Assembly (NCBI RefSeq): GCF_026419855.1
Contig: NZ_JAOAKP010000017.1
Span: forward strand, 1-33,443
DNA: 33,443 nucleotides
Reading direction: 5' to 3'
From: Methanothrix sp.
GTDB lineage: Archaea; Halobacteriota; Methanosarcinia; Methanotrichales; Methanotrichaceae
Position 1 is the stretch's first letter, and each line of letters begins with the position of its first letter. The position numbers and the translations under genes are program-made. Below are positions 9,077-16,156 of the stretch, piece by piece. Below the pieces are notes generated by a model. That model saw only the letters and a list, made by a program, of their open reading frames with translations, made no database searches and was not told where the DNA came from.

Positions 9077-9123
9077 CACCCTCCGAACTGAGATGGCATA
9101 GAAGATGGTGTGGTATATAATTA
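9077..9123 (-). promoter_or_regulatory. Promoter and ribosome binding site of the asd operon
   Basis: On the minus strand a TATA box AATTATATACC (9113-9123) is followed about 25 bases later by a predicted transcript start near 9092. A long Shine-Dalgarno sequence GGAGGGTG (9077-9084) lies eight bases before the ATG. That 8-mer is perfectly complementary to the loop sequence CACCCTCC of the candidate small RNA at 15804-15892. Confidence 0.65.
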
Positions 9124-9339
9124 CTGCTCCTGAAAGGATGCAGAGGGACCACGGCATCGCCAGGCCTGACGTATTCGGCGGAGAGCATCGGATCTTGTGC
9201 TCGAATCATCGAACGTCCTGTCAGAAAATAGACAGCTAGCGGTGCAGTACCTCACACATCCCTTGACATGCCATTGATCTTAATGATAAGAGTAGATGTC
9301 CCGCAACCCAAAAGCTTATATTCGTCAAATGTCGAAGAG

Positions 9340-9495
9340 ATGCTGACCGATATGTTCGAGAGAAATGCATGCACTTATGGCTTAGCTCACATGAGCTGGT
9401 TCAGTGTGTACGACTGGGAAAAGCCGGAGCCGAATCCTGAGCCCAGGATGCCCAGGAGAAGGAGACCATTTATCAGCAGCCCGTGTGGCTGCTAA
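9340..9495 (+). CDS. Small Pro/Arg-rich protein, 51 residues
   Basis: An ATG ORF about 25 bases downstream of a good TATA box (AAAGCTTATATTCG, 9311-9324), so a leaderless transcript fits. The product ends in a Pro/Glu then Arg-rich stretch (KPEPNPEPRMPRRRRP) and a terminal CGC. The promoter motif closely resembles those of the DUF2193 operon and the small RNA. An in-frame upstream ATG at 9268 would lie before the TATA box. I do not recognise a family; the basic tail might bind nucleic acid. The 270 bases between the asd start and here hold only the asd promoter and this one. Confidence 0.42.
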   Translation: MLTDMFERNACTYGLAHMSWFSVYDWEKPEPNPEPRMPRRRRPFISSPCGC

Positions 9496-15575: not shown

Positions 15576-15692
15576 TGCTGTGTTGGATAAGTCTTTAAAA
15601 TCCGCAAACAGAAGACGATTCCAGGAATGCGTGGAGAGTAGATCAGAATCAATAGCTAGAGACGTTATCACAAAGGGTTATCCAACACAGCA
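15576..15692 (+). mobile_element. 117-bp miniature inverted-repeat element, copy 2 (complete)
   Basis: Bounded by perfect 15-bp terminal inverted repeats TGCTGTGTTGGATAA and TTATCCAACACAGCA. It is flanked by the 8-bp target duplication TTCAAACC at 15568-15575 and 15693-15700. It encodes nothing obvious and must have been moved by a transposase supplied elsewhere. Confidence 0.95.
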
Positions 15693-15770
15693 TTCAAACC
15701 CGCAAACCAGAATGACGATCTGAGTCGGGAACTGATTATATCTCCCCAAATATTCGTAATCATGATATAC

Positions 15771-15787
15771 CGAAAACTTTATATTCG
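15771..15787 (+). promoter_or_regulatory. Strong BRE/TATA promoter of the candidate small RNA
   Basis: CGAAAACTTTATATTCG combines a BRE-like purine-rich element and a TATA box, nearly identical to the promoter of the DUF2193 operon. It predicts transcription starting at about 15803-15808. No conventional gene follows in the next 500 bases. Confidence 0.75.
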
Positions 15788-15803
15788 ACTTTAGACTAAG
15801 TAA

Positions 15804-15892
15804 TGAACGGCAAAAGTCGAACTCGACACCCTCTTCTCATTGCTACTCCCTTCTACACCCTCCCGACTTTTGCCACCCCCTTAGTTTTTAGT
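15804..15892 (+). ncRNA. Candidate small RNA with anti-Shine-Dalgarno loop
   Basis: About 25 bases after a strong promoter comes a perfect 11-bp inverted repeat, GGCAAAAGTCG (15809-15819) and CGACTTTTGCC (15864-15874), enclosing a 44-base loop that is almost free of G. The loop contains ACACCCTC twice (15826-15833 and 15855-15862) and CTCCC once, all complementary to archaeal Shine-Dalgarno sequences. The T-rich TTAGTTTTTAG (15881-15891) can end transcription. This is the layout of a trans-acting small RNA of about 88 bases. A leaderless 30-residue ORF (ATG 15803, stop 15893-15895) also fits the promoter spacing and cannot be excluded. No known RNA family is recognised. Confidence 0.6.
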
Positions 15893-16039
15893 TGAGGAGC
15901 GCTTCCACCATGTATCATCTTCTGTGGAGTGGGTGTGTGACAAGAAACACATGCTCCACTGGTCGTGACCAATAGCCGAATGGGACGACTCCGACTGCCT
16001 CTGATGGTTCAGTGCTGCAGGGCGAGGTTGCGTATCCAG

Positions 16040-16156
16040 TGCTGTGTTGGATAAGTCTTTAAAATCCGCAAGCAGAAGATGATTCCAGGAATGAGTGGAG
16101 AATAGATCGGAATCGATATCTTTAGACATTATCTAAAAAAGTTATCCAACACAGCA
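16040..16156 (+). mobile_element. 117-bp miniature inverted-repeat element, copy 3 (complete)
   Basis: Same length and same perfect 15-bp terminal inverted repeats as copy 2, about 85 percent identical inside. Flanked by the 8-bp duplication GTATCCAG at 16032-16039 and 16157-16164. Between the small RNA and this element lies a short hairpin, GTGGAG (15924-15929) with CTCCAC (15954-15959). The interval 15429-16327 otherwise holds no gene I can support. Confidence 0.95.

Follow-up and report, generated by a model that had tools for sequence, protein, structure and literature searches.

The hairpin gene unit and its surroundings

The DNA analysed here (in the following, the window) is a stretch of 33,443 nucleotides from Methanothrix sp. 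(contig NZ_JAOAKP010000017.1). At about positions 15766–15892 it carries a promoter, an 11-bp stem, a G-poor loop of 44 nt and a pyrimidine-rich tail, which together form one unit (Table 1). This unit is located between two miniature elements (15576–15692 and 16040–16156), direct copies of about 117 bp with 88% identity that display terminal inverted repeats of 21–26 bp (TGCTGTGTTGGATAA...). A preliminary description of this DNA had listed the promoter, the stem, the loop, a repeated loop motif, a T-rich end and the flanking elements, all of which were found in place.

The 5′ end of the predicted small RNA was set at 15806–15809 from the spacing to the TATA box, and its 3′ end at about 15892 from the pyrimidine-rich and T-rich tail. 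Positions 15807–15892 are predicted to fold into a single 11-bp stem closing the 44-nt loop, with an energy of −15.5 kcal/mol as compared to −6.6 ± 2.1 for shuffled sequences (z = −4.2); none of 200 dinucleotide shuffles was as stable as the native fold. The loop (15820–15863) contains two G residues in total. The promoter pattern has one perfect match within the window, and with at most one mismatch it occurs at five places genome-wide, all five upstream of copies of the window hairpin. One promoter-like match (G000:C61:7820) was dropped, as it apparently lies inside a reading frame. A search of the window with the covariance models of Rfam 15 gave no match at the gathering score; the best sub-threshold match (17.5 bits versus a gathering score of 48, on the wrong strand) is regarded as chance.

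Table 1. Features of the hairpin gene unit and of the two associated loci (positions without prefix refer to the window).
Feature	Position	Strand	Basis
BRE and TATA box CCGAAAACTTTATATTC	15770–15786	+	100% identical in six species
Operator-like imperfect inverted repeat TTCGACTTTAGACTAA, just 3′ of TATA	15785–15800	.	Family consensus TCGnCAATTGnCGTA; position-specific conservation, 90 copies
Predicted small RNA, about 86 nt	15807–15892	+	Fold, conservation, TATA spacing
Closing stem, 5′ arm GGCAAAAGTCG (perfect 11 bp)	15809–15819	+	Invariant in genus; family pair counts
C/U-rich, G-poor loop, 44 nt	15820–15863	+	97% identical in six species; predicted 98% unpaired
Loop motif ACACCCTC, two occurrences	15826–15833 and 15855–15862	+	Read from sequence
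17-nt seed TCATTGCTACTCCCTTC	15837–15853	+	Perfect complement of leader site G000:C92:18776–18792; 16 nt common to loop of small RNA L005
CCTCC anti-Shine-Dalgarno core, 3′ edge of loop	15859–15863	+	Family enrichment
Closing stem, 3′ arm CGACTTTTGCC	15864–15874	+	Invariant in genus
Pyrimidine-rich tail ACCCCCTTAGTTTTTAGT, likely 3′ end	15875–15892	+	Family consensus TCCCTCCTT; 90% identical in genus
Predicted small RNA L005/L101, 68-nt hairpin GGCACGAGGTCGCGTTTAATTACCCCCTTCATTGCTACTCCCTTTCGCATCTCGTGCC	G000:C114:19735–19803	+	Own promoter CCTAAAAGTTAATAAGG
Purine-rich leader L004/L100	G000:C92:18589–18899	+	Several sites complementary to L005, one to the window small RNA

Conservation and coding potential

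The unit was aligned with orthologues from the genomes of five other species of the genus (six including the window). The BRE/TATA region and the two arms of the stem are 100% identical to the window. The loop follows with 97%, the tail with 90% and the operator-like repeat with 89%, and the spacer ahead of the stem reaches 70%. Outside of the unit, identity drops to 45% upstream and 44% downstream. The contrast between these flanks and the core parts at 90–100% delimits a conserved block that is bounded by the promoter and the tail. One relative retains the neighbouring genes of the unit (a pRiA4b ORF-3-like gene and fwdD), and in other relatives the neighbours differ. Hence, the unit is independent of its flanks, both miniature elements included. 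The initial proposal of a small RNA under its own promoter, in which a closed stem carries an open C/U-rich loop and the end is rich in pyrimidines, is supported.

As a competing reading, the preliminary description had considered a leaderless ORF of 30 residues. In the window genome, an ATG at 15803 indeed opens a frame of about 30 residues through the hairpin. However, a 2-nt deletion within the loop disrupts this frame in one species. In others the start codon is replaced by ATT/TTG or TTA, and four of the six species have no usable start. Frameshift and lost starts indicate that the unit is not a peptide gene, and the codon pattern thus favours an RNA over the frame.

A multi-copy family of predicted small-RNA genes

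Homology search with the window copy retrieved paralogues from the same genome as well as homologues throughout the family. Five sibling copies, the window hairpin being one of them, are present in this genome, and all have the same promoter. A covariance search with a model termed R1 was positive in 139 of the 238 genomes of the class; the listed Methanotrichaceae genomes have 3–15 copies each, and genomes from its other families usually have one. When 393 genomes were drawn evenly from the phylum, none of the matches listed lay outside of the class. The window copy scores 80.5 bits against R1 (E = 6.8e-15); its sequence belonged to the training set, yet the 139 genomes contain independent copies. 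It displays the features by which the family is defined, an 11-bp stem of the GGCAAAAGUCG/CGACUUUUGCC type around a pyrimidine-rich loop. Among the named records that show the stem pattern are Methanothrix/Methanosaeta, Methanocrinis, Methanolobus, Methanomethylovorans and ANME-2. Tandem copies occur, for example four within 500 bases at G015:C24. Matches of the bare stem pattern in bacterial contigs and in one viral contig were taken as chance, the pyrimidine loop being absent where inspected.

The stem is kept in 100 distinct copies, which again favours an RNA. Across these copies (11 pairs each), 944 Watson-Crick pairs, 114 G-U pairs, 9 A-C cells and 33 other cells were counted. As G-U pairs of an RNA from the opposite strand would appear as A-C cells, the asymmetry of 114 versus 9 points to selection on a transcript of this strand. 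With a stem core that hardly varies, there are few compensatory double changes; this near-invariance leaves room for a protein that could read the stem as a binding site. The loops of the family, which average 34% C, 34% T and 8% G, vary among copies in length (20–50 nt) and in flanking sequence.

On this comparative evidence, the window hairpin is a member of a predicted family of small-RNA genes that is absent from Rfam and previously uncatalogued. The preliminary description had missed the paralogues and the class-wide family, as well as the operator-like motif and a second predicted small RNA with the same seed (see below).

In several Methanosarcinaceae-type genomes, a DUF2117 gene and/or a sodium:solute symporter is found in the vicinity of the single-copy homologue, and in another family of the class the homologue adjoins a gene of a TPP-enzyme (porB-like); the loci with these neighbourhoods are L066, L067, L070, L077, L082 and L084.

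Promoter and operator-like motif of the family

Upstream anatomy was examined in 90 copies whose 5′ flank was long enough. In these copies the stem is preceded by a BRE/TATA element, and the TATA box scores high in 68 of them; the distance from the start of the TATA box to the stem is 30–32 nt in 63 of these 68, within a full range of 28–33 nt. Located 3′ of the TATA box, the imperfect inverted repeat TCGnCAATTGnCGTA displays position-specific conservation over the 90 copies. The window copy shares this arrangement, with its own promoter, the fixed distance and the operator-like motif. The motif is a putative operator. Since it is common to all copies, the siblings are probably switched by one factor at this shared site. 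One may speculate that this factor is the winged-helix-like protein encoded in the leader operon described below.

Directly 5′ of the BRE, many copies (e.g. L042, L246, L251) carry a second motif, CGTCGATyGyCTTA, that resembles the one behind the TATA box; the TATA box may be flanked by two operator sites. A promoter similar to that of the small RNA, with an operator-like motif (CCCAAAAGCTTATATTCGTCAAATGTCGAAG), was also found in the window at 9307–9495 (+ strand) before a conserved frame of 51 amino acids, which ends in CGC, is 82% identical in a second species and is without a Pfam match.

Anti-Shine-Dalgarno character

The preliminary description had drawn attention to an 8-nt match between the repeated loop motif and the Shine-Dalgarno sequence of asd. 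This match is present: CACCCTCC at 9077–9084 (+ strand) corresponds to GGAGGGTG before asd on the − strand. Pairing of the loops with translation starts was screened on 322 predicted starts; these came from 400 kb sampled from the complete genome of a related member of the genus. For the window-type loop, paired runs of at least 7 nt were found at 7.8% of the 322 starts, as compared to 11.6% on average for composition-matched shuffled loops; runs of at least 8 nt occurred at 7 starts versus 4–5 equally long control stretches. At these starts the window loop thus performs no better than shuffled loops, whereas two sibling loops match ribosome-binding regions more often than all 40 shuffles. The asd match lies within chance, and asd was discarded as a specific target.

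For the family, the anti-Shine-Dalgarno character itself is supported. CCTCC is present in 82 of 89 Methanotrichaceae loops (about 14 expected from shuffling) and in 62 of the 89 tails (about 11 expected), so that 87 of the 89 copies carry CCUCC in the loop or in the 3′ tail. Anti-Shine-Dalgarno pairing of the family is a credible prediction. Perfect complementarity to the loop consensus of the family over 16 nt was found at loci of the small RNAs only, which indicates that there is no single obvious target of the consensus.

A second predicted small RNA and a possible common leader target near mcm

The longest complement of the window loop measures 17 nt and is formed by the seed TCATTGCTACTCCCTTC with GAAGGGAGTAGCAATGA. 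It is present in all six genomes of the genus, with one mismatch in one species. The site lies in a conserved, purine-rich leader region of about 300 nt, which has its own TATA box and a hairpin with compensatory changes; no conserved reading frame was found in this region. The leader is followed by a frame of 52 amino acids, a protein of 148 amino acids and mcm, in this order. The 148-aa protein gives weak winged-helix matches below the cut-off. Among composition-matched shuffled loops, one in 100,000 reaches 17 nt in this leader. Taken alone, the 17-mer has a modest genome-wide E-value of 0.067; the match gains its weight from the fact that the leader is picked out independently by a second predicted small RNA, L005. 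Predicted accessibility of the leader site is moderate (0.27–0.70), and about 185 nt separate the site from the first convincing start codon that follows. A frame of 28 amino acids that starts at the site (MNVRFEGG...) was considered as an mRNA target and dropped, as one species has a stop codon within it and the others show divergent sequences; the region is for this reason treated as a leader. In another genus, the orthologous 148-aa gene is 50–55% identical and has a longer leader (L225–L228) with GGGAGTAGCAATGAAGGGG-type sites.

L005 was matched in all 37 Methanotrichaceae genomes searched, with 91–96% identity in most and 82–92% in a more distant genus, and is thus conserved more deeply than the window small RNA. 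No Rfam family was found for it. Its 5′ hairpin is variable in sequence, and its loop carries the same 16-nt seed as the window loop. L005 pairs with the leader in several blocks, with a predicted duplex energy of −92 kcal/mol as compared to −49 for the window loop. The leader may possibly serve as a target or as an RNA sponge.

Proposed mechanism and alternative explanations

At the level of sequence, the window RNA has the properties of a trans-acting antisense small RNA: it is separately encoded, non-coding and displays an accessible complement to another predicted transcript. From these features we infer transcription, binding and a direction of the effect as follows. We consider it fairly probable that the window RNA is a trans-acting antisense RNA from a multi-copy family of siblings, and that this copy has become specialised towards the leader of the winged-helix-like gene. 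The conserved stem would keep the C/U-rich loop open, and the loop, along with the C/U-rich tail in most siblings, would base-pair with purine-rich RNA. Most siblings would expose CCCUCCU, fit for the masking of Shine-Dalgarno sequences, and the window copy would additionally have gained the seed UCAUUGCUACUCCCUUC. It would most likely bind AAGGGAGUAGCAAUGA in the long leader of the winged-helix-like gene near mcm, at a site also used by L005, in competition or in cooperation. An SD-AUG-like element of the leader (GGGAG-N5-AUG) would be covered by such a duplex, which may result in repression or re-folding; with the same molecules, the leader may instead titrate the small RNAs. We put forward a broader version as a tentative idea: that multi-copy sibling antisense RNAs throughout the class are co-switched by one transcription factor acting between TATA box and start, and that in Methanothrix two unrelated hairpins converge on one leader, as target or sponge, whose operon possibly encodes that very factor.

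Other explanations have to be weighed against the specialised antisense RNA. All siblings might act as general anti-Shine-Dalgarno decoys or repressors that mask the ribosome-binding sites of many mRNAs via CCUCC, with no privileged target and asd as one of many. The enrichment of CCTCC well above shuffled expectation and the two sibling loops that exceed all shuffles speak for this; however, the window loop fails to do so at the 322 starts, and its 44 nt are conserved over their full length, well past CCTCC, so that we regard this explanation as rather unlikely. Less probable still is an RNA that binds or sequesters a protein, where the near-invariant stem and the pyrimidine loop would be recognised by an RNA-binding protein and the multiple copies would titrate it. 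The conserved sequence of the stem core with its very few compensatory double changes would fit, as would a multi-copy family with a common loop consensus, but the loops vary between copies in length and flanking sequence, and the 17-nt complement shared with the unrelated hairpin L005 would be left unexplained.

The location between two element copies, and the presence of copies at unrelated places of the genome, may suggest a part of the miniature transposable elements or a palindrome acting at the DNA level, such as a site of recombination or replication. Yet promoter and tail set sharp limits to the conserved block, the flanks including the elements are unconserved elsewhere, a promoter is present at the copies examined, and wobble asymmetry is meaningless for DNA. 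A DNA-level role is hence very improbable, and an origin from the flanking elements was rejected because these are not conserved with the unit in other species. The faintest prospect, which was rejected, is that the unit encodes a leaderless peptide of about 30 residues: beyond the ATG at 15803 and its open frame in the window genome, this reading faces the two-base deletion, the lost starts and a stem that is kept with strand-specific wobbles.

Relation to known systems

To our knowledge, very few archaeal small RNAs have a defined family. Multi-copy anti-Shine-Dalgarno small RNAs are known from bacteria, and the present data suggests that such RNAs arose in archaea too. The family predicted here is a new class-wide one, with a specific candidate partner for the window copy. 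With a covariance model it can be followed through Methanothrix, Methanolobus and ANME-type archaea, where a genome may contain up to 15 siblings. Together with the common operator-like motif and a concrete candidate RNA partner, this renders archaeal post-transcriptional control testable in major methane cyclers.

Cuckoo/CcsR RNAs of alphaproteobacteria carry a CU-rich, anti-SD-like loop motif. They resemble the window family in that homologous siblings occur in several, partly tandem copies, which we take as an analogy only. CcsR RNAs form a cluster of four, co-transcribed with the gene of a DUF1127 protein and cut by RNase E (PMC10253847), whereas each copy examined of the window family has its own archaeal promoter. 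No DUF1127 match was found among the scanned neighbours of family copies. LhrC-type RNAs of Listeria are another bacterial case of several sibling small RNAs with C/U-rich pairing loops; they differ from the window family in structure and promoter.

The characterised archaeal small RNAs used for comparison are those of Methanosarcina mazei (PMC3510493, PMC5867862). In this species, sRNA162 uses a single-stranded linker to mask a ribosome-binding site (PMC3510493), and masking of such sites is also described for sRNA154 and sRNA41 (PMC5867862). These are likewise RNAs of a methanogen with unpaired or loop segments shown or proposed to pair over ribosome-binding sites, and if our model holds, the window-type RNAs would work like them. 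sRNA162 has three stem-loops and homologues detected in Methanosarcina only (PMC3510493). The RNAs of the window family, on the other hand, have a single hairpin whose stem is conserved, and their genes occur in many copies per genome that have the operator-like motif in common; in six large-genome relatives, presumed to be Methanosarcina, R1 gave no convincing copy (best E = 0.04). A dRNA-seq study on Methanolobus psychrophilus describes 195 small RNAs (PMC5378194), and a homologous transcript may already have been detected among these.
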